A stretch of DNA of 64,000 nt from positions 23,222,501-23,286,500 of the forward strand of contig NC_052359.1 in assembly GCF_009727055.1 (NCBI RefSeq), in the 5' to 3' direction. Source of the stretch: Benincasa hispida. Its lineage: Eukaryota > Streptophyta > Magnoliopsida > Cucurbitales > Cucurbitaceae. Below, piece after piece: positions 15,869-59,000 of the stretch. The notes beneath the pieces were generated by a model. That model made no database searches. It was given only the letters and a program-made list of their open reading frames with translations, and was not told the origin of the DNA. A program made the position numbers and the translations under genes. The stretch's first letter is position 1. Every line of letters starts with the position of its first letter.

Positions 15869-17352
15869 CAAGGCAAGATTCGCACACAGGTAAAGAATTT
15901 TCTTCTAACTCACTTAGAAGTCCATTCTTCACGAATCTCTCAATCCTTGTGATTAATATGCCCTAAACGTAGATGCCAAATTGGGCATTTTATTTTAGAG
16001 AAACGTTGACGTTTTGATTAAGTTACGGCAGTTCTGAACATTTCAGTATTATGGAGGGAATTAATGGCTAACGGCCTTAGCACATATAAACTCAATTCCA
16101 GATTTGCTGTGCAAATAAAAACACCATCTTTATGAATAAACGCTTTATTCAAATTGAAAGAAACAGTGTATTTACATTGCAATAAACACTTTACAGAAAT
16201 AAGGTTCCTTTTTAGTTCAAGAACAATATATACATCATTTAAAATTAGAAACCTATTTTGTAAAGCTACCTAGAGTCCTCCCATTGCCACATCTGAGACG
16301 ACGTGCCCGGTGCTTACTCACGTCGTCATCTCACCAGCCTCCAGCTGTTGCCAAGATCTAATCCCCTGAAAAGAAGAACAAACATGGTTAGTGGCACCCG
16401 AATCAATTATCCAGACAGAATCATCATTCTCCACAAAACAAGTTTCGAGCACAAGTAAATCACATTTACCTTTATCCGCCTTGGCTGCTTTCTTCTTCTT
16501 CAAATACTGAGGACAGTTCCTCTTCTAGTGTCCATCTTGGTTGCAATGGAAACACTTTCCCTTAACAATTGATGGACGCCTCCTCGGGGCGACAGGCGGT
16601 GGGTTAGCAGGTGCCTTCCCTTTTCCCTTACCACCCTTCTTCTTCTTCCCCTTTGTAGAGTTAGAAGTAGAAGGTGCAGACTTCGTTCCTGAGGTCGAAC
16701 CTCGATGGAAAGTCCTTGAGGATGAAGCAATATTTGCCTCGCCCTTCTGCCTCTCCTTACTTTTTAGTAAAGATTGGTATGTCTGCAACTCGTTGAGAAG
16801 AGTTGTAAGGTTCTACTTCACTTTGTTAAGAATCACATTGCTAACAAAGTGCAGGAAGCTCTCCAGCAAAAGATGCAGAATTATGCTAACCTAGCTACCC
16901 TCATCGATGGTAGATTCATTCAACTCCGCCACATTGAAGTGGACCATCATGTTTAGCACATGTTCACGAACAGAGGTGCCTTCTTGCATTTTGGAGTTGA
17001 ATATGTATTTAAGAGCCTCATGCAAAAGTTATTCAGACGGTTGTCCAAACATCCCCCGTAGGGACTCCATGATCTCATGGACTGAAACCATAGGCTCATG
17101 CTTCTTGGCCAAGAAGTCAGAAAGACTTGTCAAGATAGAGGCTCAGGCCTTCTCATTCACCCTTGTCCATCGCTCATATGCCTCCCGAACATTTTGAGCG
17201 ACATTTGGAGCTGGAATAGGAGGACAAGCCTCCGTGAGAGCGAACATGACATCCTCGATGATTAGGATCGTCGTGATCATGTGTTTCCATGTTGAAAAAT
17301 TGTCGCTAGTTAGTTTTTCGGCGCTTAACAATGATAAGGTGGTTGTAGCCAT
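15869..17352 (-). pseudogene. Copia gag, protease and GAG-pre-integrase (decayed)
   Basis: The reading starts on the minus strand at 17352 with MATTTLSLLSAEKL and a Copia gag N-terminus (FSTWKHMITTILI). It continues through gag with stops and frame changes to a zinc knuckle near 16510-16560 (CFHCNQDGH, next residues degraded), preceded by a lysine/glycine/proline-rich linker. The aspartic protease motif follows at 16318-16503 (WIIDSGATNHVCSS), then a diverged stretch and the GAG-pre-integrase LPVCESCLEGK at about 15870-15900. The order gag-PR-INT is Copia. A near-identical gag piece recurs at 26735-27368. The initiating Met is chosen because it matches a conserved gag start and a leader-like region precedes it. 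Confidence 0.88.
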
Positions 17353-18184: not shown

Positions 18185-19812
18185 TGATAACGGGCAGAAA
18201 TGCACGTTATTACAGTGCTAAGTTATTAAACAATGCAGGTTTGCGTTGATAAAATATACAAGATTGCATCCAAAAAGCATTAAGTTTATAACATTGCGAT
18301 CGCATGCATTCATCACAAAAAAATAGTTAACTTTTATATTTTTGTGCAGAGTATGTGTTGACGCAAAGCGTAAAATGCGATCACAAGAAGGTAACGGTCG
18401 AGCGCAGCATTACTGCAAGGCTTTGCGGTGATTTGTGCTCGCAAATATCTGCTCATGAAGGATTGCCGCATAGAGCCGCCGCAACTTGGTGGGTGCATCT
18501 GGGTGAAAAGCATAATAAATCACGATGGGACGGAAATCTGATGACGGTCGAGTCCGAATTAAGTTGATAAGCCGCTAACGAACTACTATAGCGAGTACAC
18601 TCAGCTTTTCGGTGACAAATATTAGCGCATCAGACAGAGAATTAATGCCATCCCATCAGCGCAATCATAAGAAAGAAGATGCCTTTCACCCCGAAGCTCT
18701 ATAAATACCGAAGGCAACCTTCAGTAAAGAAGTTCGGATAGTTAGAGAATTTTTCCCTCAGAAAGAAATAGCCTTGTTCATAGTTTTTCTTTTTATTTAG
18801 AAGGCGGAGCGAGAGAAGGGAAGAGACGCCAGAAGATCGCTCTTGTCAGCTCAAGAGAGAACCTAGAGGCATGGAAAGAAAAGAGAGGGCCGACTCTCAC
18901 GGGAGCGAGACTATCTTTTGAACATAGTAGAAAAGACAGTGTAAAAGCCTTGGGAAGCAAGACATTGCTACCAGGCTCTTTATTCTCATCTTGCATTGTT
19001 ATTTTGTATTTCAACTCTATATCTATAAAATGGAACTTGCTTATCTACATCTGTTCACTCTCTTAATAGCACGCATGAGTAGCTAAATTTATCGAATGGG
19101 TTGAGAAGAACTAAGCTAACATGACCTAGGACCTTCATCTCATGCAATTATCTTGTCTTATGTTGTGCCCAACACACCCTTTAGAGCTACTCGAGAGAGC
19201 GAGATTAGATCTGCATAAGCGAGACATAGGGACTTATAGATAAGCTCTGTTTGCTAACATGCATCGCATGCAGCCTAGAGATAGGTTATGATATTATATG
19301 GTCGCCTTATTTGTGTGTGTGTCATTTGTCATCGCATAAATAAGAATAAAGGCTTATGTGTAGGTCCTATAGACTCATCGCATATATCGCATGTGTTCTA
19401 GTACTAGAAGCCGTAGCATTTGCGTTGAGAAATGATTTGCTATTGATGTGTGTTGCATGATCGCATAACATGAATGCATCCTAAGAAGTGTTAGTTGAAC
19501 CCCTTCTCAACCCGTTCCCCGCATACTCATCGCATCTTCTGTATTATCAACTCTTTTCATAACTCCGCCGTATACATTTACTTTATACCATAAACAACAA
19601 CCCAAAAACAACTATTTGATTTATTGGTTATCACAAAGTATTCTCGAAAATTATCACCGCATATCATTTTCCCTAGTTCCTGAGTTTGACCCTAGACTTA
19701 CCAGGAAACTCAGTGGAATTTATACTTGGATTCTGCTGAGAAAACTTGTTGCTCAACGCATTTCTATCACCGCATTTCCTTCCATTATTTCATCACATAA
19801 AATAACGCATCA
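18185..19812 (+). mobile_element. 5' LTR of the Tat-type Gypsy element
   Basis: The LTR begins TGATAACGGGCAGAAATGC and ends ACGCATCA, 6 nt before a tRNA-Asp-type primer site. It is 1628 bp long, similar to the 1674-bp solo LTR of the same family at 23247-24920. It has a terminal hairpin (18187-18192 with 18205-18210, plus inner GCA and TGC), a TATA box at 18700-18707 and repeated cgcat, tgcgat and gatcgcat words. The short frames inside have no recognisable product. Confidence 0.85.
18700..18707 (+). promoter_or_regulatory. TATA box of the Tat LTR
   Basis: The context is gaagctctataaatacc, in line with the two Tat-like LTRs at 13883 and 39835. Confidence 0.55.
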
Positions 19813-19940: not shown

Positions 19941-21410
19941 TTGAGAAACAACCACCAACAACAACAATCAGATAAAGACGATATGGCGGAGCAGTCTGGC
20001 AACAGAGCACCAAACGAAAACAATGTCATGGCGAATCCAATCTTATTGGCAAACAATCGCAATAGGCCCATTCGCGACTATGCATCGCCAAACCTCTATG
20101 ATTTCTCTCCAGAAATCATGAGGCCTGCCCTTGATGGATCTCGATTCGAAATGAAATTGGTGATGCTGCAGATGATCTAGACTACATGACAGTTTGGAGG
20201 AAGGCATGGCGAGGACCGCACGCACACCTCCGAAGCTTCATAGAAATCTGCAACACTTTTGTGTTCCCAAATATCTCTACCGAAGAAGTTCGACTAACTT
20301 GTTTCCATTTTCTCTGTGTGATCAGGCACGAAAATGGGCGTATTCTCTCGAACCGGGGGAGATCACTTCCTAGGAGCAAGTCATAAAGAAGTTTATGAAG
20401 AAATATTTCCCACCCACTGAGAATGCCATGAGAAGGAAATTAATAACCAATTTTGAACAGGAAATGGACGAATCGCTCAACGATGCCTGGGCAAGGTTTA
20501 AGAGGCTGGTAAGGGACTGTCCTCACAATGGATTACCAGACCTGTCTCTTATACACATCTAGATGTGTATAAGAGACAGGTAATAGACTGTCCACACAAT
20601 GGATTACCAGACTGCTTGCAAATGGAAATCTTTTATCACGGTTTAAATCCCGCTTCGTAAACCGCTGCCAATGCGGCAGCCGCTGGTGGTCTGCTAGACA
20701 AAACATATGATGAGGCTAAGAACATCCTCGATCGCATCTCTAAAAATCACAAAGACTAGAGAGAGAGCGATCAGAGACTGAGAATAAAGAATAATGACGC
20801 AAACAATGGGCTATCGCATCACTTCATGGTCAGATGACTGCGATGATGAACCTAATTCAGGGAATCGCAATCAACAGCCTAACACCACATAGTGGGCAAG
20901 TAAACGCAATTAATCAGATTGCCACAAGGTGTGCGACTTGCGCTGAAGGAAACACAATGGAAGAATGCTCGCAGAACCCACAATCTATCTATTTTGTGAA
21001 AAATAACCCATTCTCTAACAGCTACAACCCTGGGTAGAGAAACCACCCCAACTTTGCGTGGAAAAATCAGCAACAGAATTTCCAATCAGCGGCGCAAAAA
21101 GAAGGGCCACCCGGATTTTTCCCGCAAAACAACGGTCAGGCGAGTAGTCAAGCCAGCAGTTCGCAACAGTCGCAATATTCCTCCTTGGAAAGTTTGTTGA
21201 AGCAGTATATCGAGAAGAACGAAACTGTGCTTCAAAACCAGGCGACGTCCATCTGCAACCTAGAATTACAGATGGGCCAGATTGCGAGTGAACTCAAGAA
21301 CAGACCGCAAGGGGCCCTGCTGAGTTCAACAGAACTCCCATGCAACCCAGTGGGATCAGTAAAGAGAAATGTCAAGCCGTGACATTGCAGAGTGGAAAGA
21401 CTATGGTGGG
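19941..21410 (+). pseudogene. Gag of the Tat-type Gypsy element (decayed and adapter-interrupted)
   Basis: The first Met considered opens MRNNHQQQQSDKDD. The next conserved blocks are NRPIRDYASPNLYDFSPEIM, the capsid helices HAHLRSFIEICNTFVFPNIS, the RFKRLVRDCPHNGLPD block, and a C-terminal part with CATCAEGNTMEECSQNPQSI in place of a zinc knuckle, followed by a Q/S-rich region and LESLLKQYIEKNE. Stops such as tag at 20178-20180 and tga just after look like single C-to-T or G-to-T changes of CAG and GGA codons. A 71-bp insertion at 20542-20612 (38-bp sequencing adapter plus a 33-bp repeated segment) also shifts the frame but is not biological. Gag would form the particle shell and bind element RNA. 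Confidence 0.85.
20542..20579. other. Sequencing-adapter contamination: Nextera mate-pair junction
   Basis: The 38 bp are CTGTCTCTTATACACATCT (20542-20560) directly followed by its reverse complement (20561-20579). Each half is the 19-bp Tn5 mosaic end used in Illumina Nextera kits, and the head-to-head pair is the junction adapter formed when mate-pair fragments are circularised. The 33 bp before it (20509-20541) recur with three differences right after it (20580-20612). This marks a false join or failed trimming in the assembly, not plant DNA. Confidence 0.97.
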
Positions 21411-21473: not shown

Positions 21474-23246
21474 AAAAGAAGAAGGAGAAAAAGAAGCGAT
21501 AGAGCTAGAAATTGTGTCCACCTCAGAGCTAAAAGAAATGGGGACCGTGAGAGTACAGTTGCCACCTTTCCCACAGAGACTCAGAAAGAAGAAGAATGAC
21601 GAGGTACAGTATCAACGCTTCATGACTATGTTAAAACAATTGCATATTAACATTTCGTTCACTGAAGCGATTGAGGAGACGCCCGCATATGCGAAGTTTA
21701 TTAAGGATATGGTGACCAAGAAGAGAGGTACTGGTAAGTTTTCCATGGTGGCTTTGACGCAGAGCTCGAAATCCATAATCCCATCAAATATGCAAGATCC
21801 TGGGAGCTTTACTATACCTTGCTCCATTGGAGGATTGTACATCGGGCAAGCATTGTGTGACCTTGGAGCCAGCATCAACTTGATGCCTGTGTCAATCTTT
21901 AAGCAGTTGAATGTGGGGCAACTTGCACCCACGATCGTGACTCTCCAATTAGCAGATAGATCTTTGGTGCATCCAGAGGGAAAGGTGAAGGACGTGTTGG
22001 TTACAATCGACAAATTTATATTACCAGCCGACTTCATCATCTTAGATTACGAAGCCGACAAAGATGTGCCATCATCTTGGGGAGACCATTTTTATCAACA
22101 GGTCGTGCCCAGATTAACGTACACAAAGGAGAGATCACCTTGAGCGTGAATGGATAGAAGCTCAAGTTCGAGATCATCCATGCCATGAAGTTTCCTGATG
22201 AAGAAGACCTAAATGAATTTGACGACGACCAGAGTTTGAATGAAGAAGAAAGGCCTGACGATGAAAAGGAAGATGAGGATGTAATCTCATCCATTGTTGC
22301 ATGTAATGCAATCATAGAAAAAAACAAACAAGGAAGATGAGATGATCGCAACCCGAGAAGAAGAGCCAACAGTAAATGAAGAAAGAAAAACAACGCAACT
22401 GTCCTTAAAAGAACCATCAATAATAGAGCTGAAGACTCTGCCTAATCACCTAAAGTATGCATTTTTGGGGCAAAATGAAAAGCTGCTAGTAATTATTTCA
22501 TCTGAACTTAGTGAAGACCAAGAGAATGCGTTGCTGAGCATTCTGAGAAAATATGTGCGAGCAATTGTATGGACACTCGCAGACATTCGAGGAATTAGCC
22601 CCGCATACTGTATACATCAAATTCGTCTCGAAGAAAACCACAGAGGATCAATCGAACATCAGCGCAGACTCAACCCTGCGATGAAAGAGGTCGTTAACAA
22701 CGAGATAATTAAGTGGTTAGATGCGAGCATCATTTATCCGATAGCAGACAGCACGTGGGAAAACCCCGTATAGTGCGTACCGAAAAAAGGTGGGATGACG
22801 GTAGTCCCCAATGCAAATAACGAGCTGATACCACAAAGGACTGTCACCGGATGGCGTATTTGCATGGACTATCGTAAGTTGAATGTGGCAACAAACAAAG
22901 ATCATTTCCCTTTACCATTCATTGACCAAATGCTAGATCGTCTAGTCGAAAATGACTTCTACTGCTTTTTGGATGGGTATGCCGGTTATAATCAGATTAT
23001 GATTGCTCTCAAAGATCAGGACAAAACCACATTTACCTGTCCGTATAGAAGTTTTGCTTTTCGCCGCATGCCGTTCAGCCTCTACAATGTGCCAAGCACT
23101 TTCCAAAGGTGCATAATGGCCATCTTTTCAGAATATTTCAAAGACTCTATAGAAATATTCATGGATGACTTCTTCGTATATGGGCACACATATGAAGTTT
23201 ATCTTGCCAACTTAGAGAAGATATTGAAAAGATGTGAAGAGACGAA
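21474..23246 (+). pseudogene. Gypsy protease and first part of reverse transcriptase
   Basis: Positions 21514-22143 encode the aspartic protease: PCSIGGLYIGQALCDLGAS, where the usual catalytic D-S/T-G-A triad reads DLGAS, followed by INLMPVSIFKQLNVG and LADRSLVHPEGKV. A linker at 22342-22773 carries LPNHLKYAFLGQNEKLLVII and the RT entry motif HQRRLNPAMKEVVNNEIIKW. The RT palm follows at 22795-23246 (WRICMDYRKLN, FYCFLDGYAGYNQIMIA, FRRMPFSLYNVPSTFQRCIM, IEIFMDDFFVYG). The catalytic FMDD is intact. Stops at 22144 and 22771 break the frame. The RT is cut at residues CEETN by a solo LTR and resumes at 24926. Confidence 0.92.
23242..23246. repeat. Left target-site duplication ACGAA
   Basis: ACGAA precedes the TG of the solo LTR and is repeated exactly at 24921-24925 after its CA. 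Confidence 0.85.
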
Positions 23247-24920
23247 TGATGCGTTATTTTATGATGTGAAATTATGGATGAAATGCAGTGATGGAATTGC
23301 ATTGAGCACTCAAGTTTTCTCAGTGGAGTCCAAGTGTAAGCCTCACTTAGTTTCCTGGTAAGTCCAGGGTCAAACTCAGGGACTTGGGAAAACAATATGC
23401 AGTGGTAATTTTCAGGAAAACTTTGTGGTAACCGGTAACTCAAATAGTTGTTTGATTTTGTTGATTGCGGTAATGAAAAATAAACAATTGCGGCGGATTT
23501 CAGAAAAGTTTGATTGTGTGATAGATGCACTGAGTATGCAGATGAACGGGTTGAGAAGGTCTTTAGCTAGCATTATTTGGGAATGCATCAGACTATGCGA
23601 TCATGCTACACCCATGCACAGCAAGTCATTTTCCAATGCAAATACGGTGCTCCTAAGTCTAGAACGCATGTGTTGAATGCAAAAGTGTCCATAGAGCTTA
23701 TTCCTAAGTCTTTACTCTTTTCCTATGCAATGATTCAAGATACACAAAGGCAAGGTGACCGCATAGAATCATATCCTATCTCTGGGATGCATGCGATGCA
23801 TTAATAGCAAACAGTGCTTATTCTTAAACTCCTATCTCTTGATTATGCGTTCTAATCTGACTCTCTCGAGTCTAGATTCTAACCTGACTTTCCTAAGCCT
23901 AGATCCTGTCCTTAGACTACCCTCCCGAATATCTCTAATGGACGAATGAAGCATATATAACACAAGATAATCGCATAGAATGAAGATCCCCAATTGTGCT
24001 AACTAATTGTTTCTCAACCCATTCAATGGATTTAGCTACTCATGTGTGATAAACAGAAAGTGAACAGATATAGAGAAGTAAATTTCATTTCTATAAATGA
24101 GTTTGAATACACAATAACAATGGAAGATAAAGGTAGAGAGCCTGGTAGCAATCCTTTGCTGCCCAAGGCTTTTACACTGGCAACTCTATTCGGTTCAAAA
24201 GATATTCCTACTTCCGCAGGAGCTGGTCCTCTCTCTGATCTTGAAGCTTCTGGCACTCTCCCAAGCTTACTGGAACGATCTGTCAACACAACCTCCTTCT
24301 CTCGCGTCCGCCTTAAAATAAAAGAAAACCTAAGAAAAAGGCTAAACTATCTAAGGAAAAATTCTCTAACTCTCCGAACTCTTTTTCTGAAGGTTGCCTT
24401 CAGAATTTATAGAGCTTCTGGGGTGAAAAGCAGCTTCTCTCTTATGATTGCACAGAAGGGATGGCTTTAATTCTCTGACTGATGCGCCGAATATTTATCA
24501 CCGAAAAGCTGAGTGTACTTGTTATCGTCAGCGTCTGTCAACTTAATTTAGATTTGACCGTCATCAGCTTTCTGTCCCATCGTGATTAATTATGCCTTTC
24601 ACCTAGATGTACCCACCAAGTTGCGCTGGCTCTATGCGACAATCCTTCTTGAGCAGATGTATGCGAACACCAATCACCGCAAAGCCTTGCAATAATGCTG
24701 CACTCGTTCGTTGATTTCTTATGATCACTCTTTTCGCCTTGCGTCAATGCATATTCTGCATAAAAATACAAAAATCAATTGTTTCTATGCGATGAACACA
24801 TGCGATCGCAATGTCATGAATTTAACACTTTTTGGACGCAATCTAACATATTTTATCAACACAAGCCAGCACTGTTTAAGAGCTTAGCACTGTAATAACG
24901 TGCGTTTCTGCCCATTATCA
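23247..24920 (-). mobile_element. Solo Tat LTR inserted in the reverse transcriptase
   Basis: Read on the minus strand it starts TGATAATGGGCAGAAACGC and ends ATAACGCATCA, matching the 18185-19812 LTR at both ends. The perfect ACGAA duplication on both sides and the seamless return to RT coding sequence afterwards show a true insertion followed by LTR-LTR recombination. It is 1674 bp. On the minus strand a TATA-like tataaattc lies in the expected place (plus-strand gaatttatag near 24403-24412). Open frames inside are not genes. Confidence 0.92.
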
Positions 24921-26385
24921 ACGAATCTCGTACTTAACTGAGAAAAATGTCATTTTATGGTGAAGGAGGGCATTATGCTGAGGCATAAGGTATCCAGGGA
25001 CGGGTTGGAGGTGGACAAAGAAAAAATTGAAGCAATTGAAAAACTCTCACCTCCAACAAGTATTAAGGCTGTAAGAAGTTTCCTGGGGCATGCCGAATTT
25101 TACAAACATTTTGTTAAGGACTTTTCAAAAATATAACGACCGCTGAGTGCGTTGATGGAGGCTAACAGAAAATTTGACTTTGACAACAATTGCCTCAATG
25201 CATTCAGGATTTTGAAGAATGCATTGATGACCGCGCCCATGTTGATCGCACTAGAGTGGACACTTCCCTTTGAATTAATGTGCGATGCAAGTGAATATGC
25301 GATGGGATCAGTTCTGGCACAGAAGAGAAAAACAATATTACATCCCATTGCATATGCGAGTAAGACTTTGAATCCTACTCAGACTAACTACACCACCACA
25401 AAAAAAGAGCTACTTATGGTGATTTTTGCATTGGAGAAATTTACAGGATATTTACTGGGAACAAAAGTACTCATCCACACTGACCACTTGGCGATAAAAT
25501 ATTTAATGACAAAAAAGGATGCGAAGCCGAGGTTGATCAGATGGGTTCTCCTCCTCCAAGAATTGGACATAAAAATAATTGATTGCATGAGGATGGAGAA
25601 CCAAGTTGTGGATCACCTATCCAGATTGGAGAATCCAGAGGTTGACTACAATCAGTCAGAGGTGAGTGTGGTGTTCCCAGACGAGCAGCTGTTTCATATT
25701 GAAGAATTGTCGTGGTACACAGACGTGGTAAATTATCTAGTTTATGAGCAATTCCCTGAAGATTATACCGACCACCAAAAGAAGAGGCTCAGGCATGAAT
25801 GCAGATCATATTTTTGGGATGAGCCAAATCTGTATAAGAAGGGGGTAGACAAGATTCTGTAACTATGTGTACCGAATGTTGCTCAACAACGCATATTATC
25901 GCAATGTCATGATTCACCATATGGTGGGCATTTTGGAGGACAGCGCACCGCAGCTAAAGTATTACAAAGTGGATTCTATTGGCCAACACTGTTTAAGGAT
26001 GCAATTGACTATGTAATGAAGTGTGACTGGTGCCAGCGCACAAGTAACATTTCATGGAAACATGCGATGCCTATAAACACCATTTTGGAACTAGAGTTGT
26101 TCAACGTCTGGGGCATTGATTTCATAAGACCATTCCCACCATCGAATGGTCAAAATTATATTTTGTTACCTGTCGACTACGTGTCCAAGTGGGTAGAAGC
26201 AGTGGCATGTGCTACAAGCGATGCGACGGTAGTCTCTAAATTCTTGAAGAAAAACATTTTCACTCGTTTTGGCACTCCACGTGCCATAATAAGTGATGAA
26301 GGGTCCCACTGTCGAAGAATTGCTGCGCAAATATAATATCCTCTATAAAGTTGCTACCGCATACCATCCGTAGACGAATGGTCAG
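24921..26385 (+). pseudogene. Gypsy RT C-terminus, RNase H and integrase (decayed)
   Basis: Coding resumes after the solo LTR with TNLVLN, a stop, then EKCHFMVKEGI, GLEVDKEKIEAIEKLSPP and VRSFLGHAEFYKHFVKDFSK. RNase H is at 25152-25640 ([65 protein letters not shown]). The integrase follows, with an HHCC-type region around 25900-26040 (HDSPYGGHFGGQ, MKCDWCQR), the core domain at 26100-26300 (NVWGIDFIRPFPPSNGQNYI, VSKWVEA, FTRFGTPRAIISDEGSH) and the last Tat motif ATAYHP-TNGQ near 26350, with a stop in place of Gln. RT-RH-INT order is diagnostic for Gypsy. It is abruptly cut by an LTR fragment at 26386, and no 3' LTR follows in sense orientation. Confidence 0.92.
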
Positions 26386-26730
26386 GTGATGCTTGATTTT
26401 ATGATGTGAATTATGGATGATAAACGATGGTGAAATTGCATTGTGCACTCAAGTTTCTTCAGCGAAGTCCAAGTGTAAATTCCATTGAGTTTCCTGGTAA
26501 GTCCAGTGTCGAACTCAGGGACTTGTGAAAATAGATTGCGATGGTAATTTTTATGAAAAATTTGCGGCGATCGGTAACTCAATTAATTGATAGTTTGTTG
26601 TTGATTGCATTGATGAAAAATAAACAAATGCGGAAGATTTGAGAAAAGTCAGTTGTGTGATAGATACACTGAGTATGCGGATGAACGGGTTGAGAAGATC
26701 TTTAGCTAGCGTTACTTGGGAATCCTATTG
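26386..26730 (-). mobile_element. Truncated Tat LTR fragment (antisense)
   Basis: The left end TGATGCTTGATTTTATGATG and the next 340 bp match the first 340 bp of the solo LTR at 23247. The match stops after the shared words gatgaacgggttgagaag and ctttagctagcgtta, near 26730, where Copia sequence begins. There is no matching right end and no target duplication. Confidence 0.75.
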
Positions 26731-26734
26731 AGAG

Positions 26735-27368
26735 TAATGTGTCCTAATCTTAGGTTCCAAAGTTGGGTGTTTTTTTTAGGAGAAATTTTAAGTCGCTTAT
26801 TTTGAGTTACGACAATTTTAAACATCTATGTTATGGAGGACATTTGTTGCTAACGGTCTTAGCACATATAAATTACTTTCCAGTTGAGCAGAACAAACAT
26901 CAACACCATTTTTGGTAATAAACACTTTATTAAATGAAAAATGTAGTTGATATTTACATTCAAGTAAACGCTTTACAAAAACTAAGTTCCTCTTTAAACA
27001 ACTACAAACACATAATTCAGAATGAGAAATTTGTTCTATAAAGTTAATTGGAGACCTCCCACTAACACAACTGAGATGACGTGTCCAGTTCCAACTTGCA
27101 TCGTCATCTCACCAGCACCAAGCTGCCACCAGGAAGTAATTCCCTTGTTTGGCCTTCTTCTTCTCTGCCAAATATATGGGGCAGATCCTCTTCGAGTGCC
27201 CATCCTGGTTGTAATGGAAACATTTTCCCTTTTCAATGCTCGATGGTTGCCTACCCCTTGGTACAACAGGTTGTGGGTTAGTAGGTGCCTTCCCTTTACC
27301 ACCCTTCTTCTTCTTCCACTTTCTGATGTCGGAGGCAGAAGGTGCAGACTTAGTTCCAGAGGTCAAAC
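26735..27368 (-). pseudogene. Copia gag/protease-region fragment, second copy
   Basis: The minus strand encodes GTKSAPSAS, a KKKKGGKGKAP linker, the zinc knuckle CFHYNQDGHSKRICP and IYLAEKKKAKQ, near-identical to the 16.5-kb copy. Unlike that copy, the zinc-knuckle spacing is intact. Left of this the sequence tracks the 15.93-16.3 kb region (for example the 'gctaacggtcttagcacatataaa' block near 26850). The fragment is cut on the right by the Gypsy LTR at 27369 and on the left by the Tat LTR scrap. The protease DSGA part is missing or deleted. Confidence 0.8.
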
Positions 27369-27725
27369 TGTAAGACCCTAACACTAAATCTAAAGTGGGA
27401 GGTTAAATAGAGAAGAAAAATCCTAAGTAAGGATATTGGAGCAAAGGGAGAAAAATATCAAAATTATCCAAAAAGGTGACCAAAAGTCTAAATGCCTATG
27501 AAGGGCTTAAAACATGTTGGACGCAAGAAGGCATGGAGAAGGGAAGCAAGAAAACTTGAAAAATGGCTAAAGGTTGCATACACCCAACGCAAAGGCATAC
27601 ATGAGCCATGCGGATACGGGCATTATGCATGCATTGAAGTGAGCATGCAAGGTGCACCCATGCATTGAAGCCAAGCGCATAGGCCATGCACAAAGCACAC
27701 AGCCATGCGTCGAGGACGAGCACGC

Positions 27726-27824
27726 AGCCCATGCGTCGATGGTGTATGACGAACGCACAGCCCATGCGTCGATGGTGTATGCCGAATGTGCAGCCCATGC
27801 GTCGATGGTGTATACCGAGCACCC
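27726..27824. repeat. 33-bp tandem repeat, three copies
   Basis: Units start at 27726, 27759 and 27792 and share agcccatgcgtcgatggtgt. Looser relatives with the 'catgcgtcgatg' word extend from about 27650 to 28080. Because 33 is a multiple of three and the unit has no stops in several frames, overlapping open frames arise. Confidence 0.85.
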
Positions 27825-28548
27825 TGTCTATACGTCGAACGGGCAAGTGGGCAAGCCAACCTATGCGTCGAGACTGCAAGTCTGTCGGTAGCCATGCATC
27901 GATGCACTATGCCAAGCGAACGCCCATGCGGCGAGCAAGCCATGCAGCGAGACACGCCCACGCGATCGAGAGTGCCTACGTGGTCGAGCATGCCTATGCG
28001 GCTAAGCGTGCAAGTGCCTAGATAGCACACCATGCGTTGATGGTCAGCACCATGCGTCCATGTTTAATAGGTCGAGCAAGCACCACCTAGCAAACCATGT
28101 TGAGGGTGAGCGGCCATCCTATGCGTTGGTGATGGCAAACTCATACGTTGCTAAGTGGGACTTGATGAAGGAAGGGTGATTTGCTATGCATTAAGGATAA
28201 ATGGTAAGGCTAATTGATGGAGAACTTTAAGGGAGGATGCCAATGGTATACGAGCATAAGTCTTAAACAATTTAAGTAGAGAAATATGTGAAGTATTTAA
28301 GTAATTTAGGTGGCAAAAGGAGGATCACATAAAATTCTAGTAGGAGGTGGCTAAAGGAGATTCATTGCAACTGAAGTCTTATCACCCAAGAAGGAGGTGG
28401 GTGAAGGAGATTTCATGCAAAAAAAGAGATTTTGGCTGGCAAGCTAAAATGAGAACAACTCAAGGCTAGGCTTGGTAGGCTGAATGTTGGCAGCTCCAAA
28501 GTGAGACAAATGGGAGTTGAGTTGTACATGGGGTGAGTTTGAAATGGC

Positions 28549-29888: not shown

Positions 29889-30207
29889 AAAGGTTTACGT
29901 AAAACCTAGAAAAAAAGTTGAGTCTAGCATAAGTATAAATAGAATCATGGAAGAGTAAAGGAAAAAGGGATAGGTTAAAGCCAAAGCAGCATCAGGAGAA
30001 GCCAAATAATATTAGAAGATAGGCCAGGTCAAAACCTAAAAAGGAATAAATATAATGAAATATATTAGGAAAAACCTAAAGTAGAATCAGGAAAGGTTAG
30101 GAGAAAGAAATGAGGAATAATAAGTGGACCTAGGAAAATATGAAAAAAAGGGAAGTGAAAATAAAGAAATTAGTAAGTAATAACCTGAATAATGTCCACT
30201 GTAGGAA

Positions 30208-33145: not shown

Positions 33146-34078
33146 CATATTCCTTGCAAATATTAGGGACGTATGTATAAAAGAGTAAGTGTCACCTAAT
33201 TTATATGATTTTTCACCAGAAATTATTCGACCAATATTTGCAGGGGCCATATTCGAAATGAAGTCATTAATTGATAAATAAATAATTGGCAATGATAGGA
33301 GTTGGGTTACTTCCAAACTAAGGTTCCTATCCATGGTGAAGAATTGCAACTTTTCGTACATCTAAAGGCATATTTTCATCCAAAAGTCATAATAAATCTG
33401 AAATCATTGTCAATTATTTGCTTATCAATAATGCTCCAAATGATCTAGGCAATTGGAAAATTTAGAGGAGCGCCAGGCGAAGACCCTCACACCCATTTAA
33501 AGAGCTTCATTGGGATATTTAACACCTTTGTGATCCCAAATATCATGTAGAGGAGATTCAATTGTCTTATTTTCATTCTCTTTAAAGGACGAAGCAAGAC
33601 AATGGCCTATGTGTTAGAACCAGGCAAAATTACTTCTTGGGAGCAAATGGCGATAAAATTTTATGAAGAAATTTTTTCTGCCTACTGAAAATGCAAAAAG
33701 ACGAAGAGAAATTATCAACTTTCGACAAAAGGATCTGGTGACTCTGAGTGACACGTGGCAAAGATTTAAGAGATTAGTGAGAAATTGCCCGCATAATAGC
33801 CTACCAAATTGTGTGCAAATGGAGATGTTTTATGATGAGCTTACTGAAAATTCACAGACTACAGCAAACTCTACTGCGGTGAAGGGGCCTATTAGAAAAG
33901 ACATATACTGAGGAAAAGGCCATTTTGGATAGGATTTCACATAATTATGAAGATTGGGAGGATAATGGTTTTGGATCACAATCAAACTTGAGAGGAAACA
34001 ATTCAAGAGCAACGAACAATGATGCAATAGCTACTCTTAAAACTTAAGTGATTGCTTTGAAAAACCTACTGCAGATGA
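33146..34078 (+). pseudogene. Tat-type gag remnant
   Basis: Gag words recur in shifting frames: SPNLYDFSPEIIRP-like near 33190-33240, DPHTHLKSFIGIFNTFVIPN near 33483-33542, LEPGKITSWEQMAIKF near 33615-33660, then 33663-33911 with MKKFFLPTENAKRRREIINF, RFKRLVRNCPHNSLPNCVQM and FYDELTENSQTTANSTAV. They parallel the gag at 19941-21410, so this is the same lineage but a different, more decayed copy. It ends at about 34078, where a Copia LTR fragment begins. Confidence 0.8.
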
Positions 34079-56054: not shown

Positions 56055-59000
56055 TTTCCTCATCCAATTTTTTTTTCTTCTCTTTTTAACGGGGACTTAA
56101 CTTGACGCACGCGTGAAGAAAAAAAGAAATTTCCTTTTCTTTTTCCTTATCTTTTTTAACTTTTAGCTCAAACTTCTATATATATATATATAGAAACTCC
56201 TTTCCTAACCTCATCCAATTCTAAATTCCCAATTCCTTATGGGAAAATTACTTTAAATCAATTATTCTAATATAATTTATTTAAATGAATTATCTTTTCG
56301 AAAAATCTAAATCTCTCAATTTTCCAAATTAAATTAAAATTGAAGTCAATCCCAAATTCTCCTTAATTTAAAACTTAAATTTCAAAATCCCTTCCCCAAA
56401 AAAAAAAATTAAATTATCTTTTTACAATAATTCAATTTAACCTAAAAAAATTCAAAATAATTCTCAAATCATTTAAGATAATTAAATTAAAAATTACACA
56501 AAATTTGGGTTGTTACACTCTCTAGCATTCCTCTTTGGCCTTTTCCAACTTACCTTTATTTCTTTAAATCTGTCTCTCTCATCTTTTCTCTCTAACTTTT
56601 TCCCTCTATATTTGATTTCTTTCTAAAGTTTTGCTGGACCTCTCTTAGTCTCTTCCATATCTTCCTCTTTATCAACTTTTTTTCTACGAGTTTTCTTTCT
56701 CTATTACACATCTTTCCAACTTTTTAACCTCTCTTTCTTACCAACTTTTTCACATCAAAGTCGTTCTCCTTATTTTTTTTTTCTCCATGACCTTTCTTTC
56801 CCCCTCTAAGCTTTGTCTTTCTAAATTTTATCTCTACCTCTGTTGCATATATCTCTCTCCAACCTGTTTGAATATATATTTTTTTTTTGTTCTCTAAAAC
56901 ATCTCTATAACCTTTCTATTATCCTAATAAGAAAATATTGGAGGACGCCACCATCGTGCGGCGGGTAGATGTACTACATAAGTGGATGTATGAGAGAGAA
57001 ACAATAAATGTATTTCAAACAATTTGACTTTGGTTAAATGTTCAATGCTAGAACAATTAAATAGGTTTTTAAACTTTACAAAGTTTCTAACATATCCTAA
57101 ACTTTCAATTTTTAGATCTCTAAATTTTAGAAATGTCTAATCAATCTTTGCCTTTAAAAATGTCAAATAGATTCCTAAATTTTCAATTATGTATCTAATA
57201 GATATTTGATATATTCAACATTTTTTTATAATTGACGACGAATCTATTAGACATAAAAAAAAAAAAATGTGTTTATTTTCAAATTTAATTCTAATAATTT
57301 TGTTAAATTTAAAAAATGTTTATCCAATCAAAGATTTATTAGATACAAAGTTGAAAGTTAAAAGACTTATTCGACACTTTTTAAATCAAGGAACTTATGG
57401 AACACAAGTTTGAAAGATCAGGAACCCTAATTGAGATCTCCAATTTTCTATCAATACCTCATCCTCTTCGATTTCTGGCCCCATATTCTGGTTGTTACAA
57501 ACTTGATAGTCCGAGAATGAGGTTGTAATATAACATTTTTTCCCCCAACTATTCTCTACCTCCCCCAAATCTCTATTTAAAAATTGTCTTCTGTTTTCTC
57601 CTTTCTCTACCTTACTTTTCTCTTGAACTCATAGTTCTCTTAATCCCCTCCCCCGATATTTCATAAATTGAAAATGGTAATAACAAAACCAAATTAAAAA
57701 AAGAGAAAACAAAAAAAGAAGAAAAAGAGAGTTGTATTTTCAAAATACAGAAAACCTCATCAAACAGTAAGTAATCTCCATTGTTGGTGATGCAGCGTTG
57801 GTGGAGCAGACTATGGCTCAGTTAGAATTGGGGCATTCATGGGGCGGAGAATGATAAAGTCAAGAGCATCAGAGTTGTTATCAAACTCCTCATCACTGGC
57901 CAATGGCATAAGCCACGACGACTTGGAAGACGATGGCATTGAGTTACTGGAATCCGAATCCTCCTTAGATTATCTATGCAATCTCCCACCTCACCGCTAC
58001 GAAGCCATGTACGCCAAGCAGCTGCCGGAGACAATAAAAGGGGAGGCTTTTATGGAGAAATATTCAGATCACAACGATGCCGTAACGGTGATCGATCCAA
58101 AGAGGGTCTATGGAGTCAGGGCCCCTGCTCGTCATCCTATCTATGAGAACTTCCGTGTGAAGGTTTGCATTTGCATTGGCTTTACATTTGCAAGGCTATA
58201 CATATATTTAGTTTGATTGATTGGTTGTTGAACATTTGGGTTTAAAGGCCTTCAAAGCGCTGCTCACTTCTGCAACTTCGGACGACCAACTGACATCTCT
58301 TGGAGAATTGTTGTATCAGGTAGGTACCATTTGGTTTTGTTTCGTTTGCACTTCGTTTTGTTATTTAGATAATAATAATAAAAATGGTGAATTATTTGTT
58401 CCATGTGGAGCGCAGTGCCATTATAGTTACAGTGCATGTGGACTGGGGTCGGATGGGACGGACAGGCTAGTTCAGTTGGTTCAAGATATGCAGCACTCCA
58501 AGTTATCCAAATCCGAAGACGGAACTTTGTATGGAGCAAAGATTACGGGTGGGGGCTCCGGTGGAACCGTCTGTGTTATGGGTCGAAACTCCTTAGGCAG
58601 CAGCCACCAAATCATTGAGGTCTCTAATTTCTTCCTTTTCTTTCACATCCCTCTTTCTCTTTAAAATTACTACACTTTGATTTTAACTAACCTTAAGTTA
58701 ATGGTTAATAATATTGATTTGGAATAGGTGGTTTGTTTTATTTGCAAAATGCATACTTGAAAATGAGTTTCCAAACTCACATTTTGGGGAATAAGAAGCC
58801 CAACCTTTGGTTGGCATCTATTTGAAGGACTAAATCCACCCTCTCTTCCCCATTTACCAACAATACTAATCTCAATTAATGTGTATATTGAAATAGATAT
58901 GATTATATAATTATTGAAGTTTCAATGATCCAGATTCAGCAAAGATACAAAGGAGCAACAGGGTTCTTGCCATATGTTTTTGATGGTTCTTCCCCTGGTG

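Follow-up and report, generated by a model that had tools for sequence, protein, structure and literature searches.

An apparent untrimmed Nextera mate-pair junction adapter, with an abutting duplicate, in a retroelement gag of the Benincasa hispida assembly

The Tn5 mosaic end combines the two natural ends of Tn5 into a hybrid that natural Tn5 is not known to carry. This 19-mer is named the ME sequence for Tn5, and it is the recognition sequence of an engineered transposase, in the passages of the source that introduce it (PMC7666144). In Nextera mate-pair libraries, the transposase puts a 19-bp adaptor on each fragment end, and circularisation then joins the two adaptors, as described in the protocol passages of the NextClip paper (PMC3928519). 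NextClip scans for this pair, made of one forward adaptor and one reverse-complement adaptor, over 34 of its 38 bases (PMC3928519).

The window –the whole stretch of 64,000 nucleotides analysed here, from contig NC_052359.1 of Benincasa hispida– contains the 38-mer as a single copy, at 20542-20579, with 0 mismatches. Both 19-bp mosaic ends are exact and lie head to head, with 0 bases between them. The adapter and its immediate surroundings read as follows:

20542..20579, no strand: 38-base junction adapter of the Nextera mate-pair type (20542-20560, Tn5 mosaic end; 20561-20579, its reverse complement)
20509..20541, + strand: left copy of a 33-bp duplicate, closing the left gag piece (30/33 identical to 20580-20612)
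20580..20612, + strand: right copy of this duplicate, opening the right gag piece (30/33 identical to 20509-20541)

Positions 20542-20579 are almost certainly an untrimmed laboratory sequencing adapter, an assembly artefact and not the organism's DNA. The 38-mer never appeared in dinucleotide shuffles of the window (0/100). The perfect palindrome measures 42 bp once two flanking bases per side are counted, and the second-longest palindrome of the window is AT-rich and measures 22 bp. The only other place in the window that resembles the 19-mer with up to three mismatches is 56695-56713; it has three mismatches, and we take it as chance and not as a second half-adapter. Exact matches to TruSeq, Nextera tails, P5/P7, loxP, 454, SOLiD, EcoP15, and SMRT sequences were absent from the window. 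The window contains no N bases, hence no visible trace of gap closing.

The two 33-mers differ only at positions 5, 6, and 15. Since three of the 33 positions differ, the flanks probably come from two copies of a repeat. The left gag frame is open from 20389 to 20541, matches Pfam Retrotrans_gag (E 2.4e-08), and stops exactly at the adapter with a final 11-residue motif. From 20580 on, the right flank shows this motif again, altered in one residue, and then continues as gag until a new stop at 20658-20660; the 26-residue right piece (20580-20657) had no Pfam match. An exact search of viral_contigs with the left 33-mer returned no match.

The likeness between the two sides extends to the left of the duplicate, so the BLAST match between them spans 46 bp at 87%. 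Just before the left copy, gag at 20496-20508 shares 10/13 positions with the closing 13 bases of the adapter, a level reached at 11 of the 63,987 window positions, the adapter itself counted. The 13 bases that follow the right copy agree with the adapter at 4/13. The likeness at 20496-20508 may be due to chance, mispriming or something else.

The gag frames of the left and right pieces lie 2 apart modulo 3, and 38 and 71 each leave a remainder of 2 when divided by 3. Because 33 bp is 11 codons, this arithmetic has no power to separate a 38-bp from a 71-bp artefact. The first-pass annotation had stated that removing 71 bp restores the gag frame locally; this is compatible with the frames, but it does not discriminate, as removing 38 bp gives an equal frame shift. 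Its other statements on the site hold: the two 19-bp Tn5 mosaic ends lie head to head as an exact match without mismatches, and the 33 bp before the adapter are repeated right after it with three differences, 30 of the 33 positions agreeing. It read the whole as a Nextera mate-pair junction that had escaped trimming and is flanked by two different gag copies; the exact sequence, the protocol papers, and the recurrence in unrelated assemblies lend this strong support.

The adapter sits in the gag of a degenerate LTR retroelement of Ty3/gypsy type on the + strand; elements of this kind are plant elements. The first-pass annotation spoke of a Tat gag, and the element may fall near the Tat/Athila branch of plant Ty3/gypsy LTR retroelements, its domains having been assigned here with Pfam. 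The parts of the element and a related gag copy are:

18185..19812, + strand: probable upstream LTR of the adapter-bearing element (limits from self-alignment; begins TGATAACG, ends CGCATCA)
20389..21382, + strand: gag region of Ty3/gypsy type, interrupted by stop codons as well as by the adapter
22774..23246, + strand: first part of the reverse transcriptase, cut at 23246 (RVT_1, E 9.5e-17 on the open reading frame 22774-23361)
25137..26336, + strand: RNase H and integrase domains belonging to the same pol (RT_RNaseH, E 2.7e-34; Integrase_H2C2, E 2.7e-15; rve, E 4.6e-08)
33762..33842, + strand: related second gag copy, with the motif once, uninterrupted and without the adapter

At the DNA level, 20163-20454 matches 33431-33722 at 68%. 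In the second gag copy, the motif runs straight into residues resembling those that follow the right-hand motif of the adapter. As this copy has the motif once and uninterrupted, the adapter and one motif copy are extra relative to it. It differs from each 33-bp flank at 12/33 positions, and thus neither flank derives from it. A viral_contigs search for sequences related to the RNase H region confirmed none.

The same 38-mer is present in other assemblies. In a scan of genome_contigs, exact matches turned up in prokaryote assemblies from at least 19 organisms and numbered at least 120 stretches, an uneven sample in which Enterococcus sp. 10A9 contributes many of the stretches. By name, these organisms belong to several phyla. 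The 38-mer was also found in seven stretches of viral_contigs and five records of PLSDB plasmids. It was absent from all 20,395 complete E. coli genome records (28 billion bases) and from the 50,697 phage records (2.3 billion bases). Among the 19 organisms, records titled chromosome or complete sequence carry it as well (L025, L101, L115, and L120), and therefore a closed record is no guarantee.

Among the matches listed, 2 of 19 organisms with the 38-mer have a paper with passages that state an Illumina mate-pair library. These are Tolypothrix campylonemoides VB511288 (PMC4384489) and Scytonema tolypothrichoides VB-61278 (PMC4384490), each with a 3-kb mate-pair library and 101-base Illumina HiSeq reads, the passages on the library giving no kit name. 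A literature search on mate-pair use for Collinsella ihumii, Bittarella, and Olsenella massiliensis found no paper.

We compared 154 other junctions, in 127 loci fetched among the matches listed, with N-free control positions of the same loci, defining an abutting duplicate as a direct repeat of the flank that is 8 bp or longer and at least 85% identical. Such duplicates were found at 30/154 junctions vs. 45/16,113 control positions, and those of at least 30 bp at 18/154 vs. 16/16,113, the 18 being spread over eight organisms among the matches listed. Twenty of the 30 duplicates are exact, and 124/154 junctions have none. N runs lay within 500 bp of 60/154 junctions vs. 612/6,002 control positions. 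Together, the abutting duplicates and the nearby N runs point to gap closing. We also counted the exact copies of a 30-bp flank that recur elsewhere in its locus at a distance of 500 bp or more: 21 of the 32 lie on the side predicted by circularised fragments and 11 do not, a count that leaves out 20/154 junctions with short flanks or N and in which several copies share one locus and are not independent.

Individual junctions vary in form. The abutting duplicate agrees at 18/19 positions in L101 (at 6856) and at 133/133 in L115 (at 4386), and L120 (at 209) has a 146-bp duplicate separated from the adapter by four bases on either side. In a viral contig (L125, 8930-9184), an inverted copy of the left 30-bp flank begins 217 bp upstream of the adapter.

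The 38 bases are almost certainly the junction of an Illumina Nextera long mate-pair library. In this account, the transposase added the 19-bp mosaic end to both ends of a long genomic fragment, circularisation of the fragment brought the two mosaic ends together head to head, and a read spanning the junction was left unclipped and taken into the assembly. For the origin of the join, we infer with moderate confidence that an assembler or a gap filler bridged two gag copies via the adapter palindrome. The palindrome is common to all such reads, and the gap filler or assembler would have treated it as an overlap. The path would have gone from a read ending in the adapter to a read beginning with the adapter about 33 bp back in gag, and, with three differences in 33 bp, this second read would derive from a different copy of the repeat. 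Several points stand against the account as a whole: the window is without N, the duplicate is imperfect, 124/154 other junctions have no duplicate, and 11/32 flank copies lie on the wrong side. Besides, it leaves the 10/13 likeness before the left duplicate unexplained.

At a more general level, we lean slightly towards the idea that the palindromic adapter acts as a universal overlap, through which every read with the adapter at its end could be linked to every read with the adapter at its start, and that local gap closing leaves a footprint, namely the adapter together with an abutting direct duplication of the flank.

A second explanation, possible and in our view unlikely, is that one circularised fragment truly had its two ends in gag copies that lie kilobases apart, so that the read was built whole and no bridging took place. 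A junction that joins the two ends of one fragment is what the protocol passages of NextClip describe (PMC3928519), and the three differences in 33 positions fit two separate genomic places. At some other junctions, moreover, the flank is repeated 2-5.3 kb away (e.g., L017, L020, L028, L086, L097, and L105). However, ends at a nearly equal position in gag with an exactly abutting 33-bp overlap need a coincidence, and local duplicates recur in 30/154 junctions. The single further copy of this part of gag noted in the window also argues against it, as it differs from each flank at 12/33 positions.

Mispriming is a poorer candidate still, and we hold it improbable: a mosaic-end strand would have annealed to the adapter-like gag before the duplicate and been extended during library preparation, giving a chimeric molecule. 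The 10/13 match at 20496-20508 and its rarity in the window (11/63,987 positions) speak for it, but the likeness was noticed afterwards, so its rarity is not a test. Beside the 30 other duplicated junctions, likeness to the adapter end was found only as 13/13 matches, one before and two after the duplicate. The site before the duplicate thus reaches at least 10/13 in 1/30 of them, and that case (L089, with the full 13/13) is probably a neighbouring adapter.

Rather than an artefact, the 38-mer could be a real laboratory insertion of engineered mosaic-end DNA into the sequenced organism or clone, which we regard as extremely improbable. The mosaic end is indeed the recognition sequence of an engineered transposase in the passages that name it (PMC7666144), but here the two ends enclose nothing, and unrelated assemblies carry the identical 38-mer, likewise empty. 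Tn5 insertion yields an exact 9-bp target duplication, whereas this site has a 33-bp repeat with three differences, and the nine bases to the left of the 38-mer are unequal to the nine to its right. That the 38-mer is a palindrome arisen by chance or the end of a natural transposon deserves practically no credence and was rejected: genomes do contain perfect palindromes, but the shuffles (0/100), the 22-bp length of the next palindrome, and the absence from complete E. coli genomes and phages all oppose it, and the mosaic end is a hybrid of the natural Tn5 ends. The embedded adapter is almost certainly an ordinary assembly error.

The first-pass annotation had carried its doubt about the adapter over to the remaining abrupt junctions in the 20-31 kb interval. 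For the breaks at 23.25 and 24.92 kb this doubt is unsupported, as we read them as the limits of a nested LTR:

23247..24920, - strand: putative nested antisense LTR of 1,674 bp in the reverse transcriptase (TG/CA ends, 5-bp target duplication ACGAA)

ACGAA is present at 23242-23246 and again at 24921-24925, on either side of the LTR. Among the TG/CA pairs tried near the LTR ends, a second pair (23262/24952) also gave a 5-bp match, and because of it the 5-bp duplication alone is not conclusive. The homology in self-alignment, however, ends exactly at 23247 and 24920, and pol coding picks up beyond the LTR. It is the coincidence of the duplication with the homology ends, together with the resumed pol, that makes the case for a nested LTR. 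Thus, the breaks at 23246/23247 and 24920/24921 are best read, from these sequence features, as biological junctions of a real nested LTR insertion, and 23247-24920 is probably a solo LTR. The upstream LTR at 18185-19812 has two blocks that are 79% and 75% identical to this minus-strand LTR. With a nested LTR nearby, the artefact does not cast suspicion on every abrupt junction in the repeat block.

Further along, a sequence starting at 26387 resembles the start of the same LTR family and cuts the integrase. In the stretch that follows this start, 26721-27145 and 27152-27368 match 15942-16367 and 16487-16700 at 71% and 77%, respectively. A far end with a target duplication and resumed integrase was not found within the window for this LTR-like start. 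TCAGG preceded by CA at 29992 was considered as its far end and set aside as likely chance. In the same region, 27496-28063 has overlapping open frames in both orientations whose peptides show a recurring pattern; this may be an imperfect tandem array.

The segment 20509-20612 is unfit for gene models, insertion dating, and gag frame analysis, and the contig may fuse two retroelement copies there. If the general idea of a gap-closing footprint is true, the footprint would serve to detect false joins in public assemblies and, within repeats such as this one, would mark the fusion of two different copies. Public prokaryote assemblies still hold the 38-mer, and an exact search suffices to find it.

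Compared with known systems, the host element is like plant Ty3/gypsy elements of the Tat/Athila branch in having LTR, gag, reverse transcriptase, RNase H, and integrase in order on one strand; it differs from them in being degenerate, with several stops, a nested LTR, and a truncated integrase. The junction is like those in prokaryote assemblies (Scytonema tolypothrichoides, Westiellopsis prolifica, and Enterococcus sp. 10A9), where the exact 38-mer lies inside scaffolds and some cases have an abutting duplication. Of the prokaryote and viral junction duplicates, 20/30 are exact, whereas 3/33 positions differ in the duplicate of the window, as expected in a repeat family. Finally, the 38 bases, a 19-bp adaptor and its reverse complement between genomic ends, are those of the Nextera junction as given in the adapter passages of NextClip (PMC3928519) and Skewer (PMC4074385). 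In those passages the junction is found in reads, whereas here it lies inside a contig, between flanks that overlap by 33 near-identical bases.
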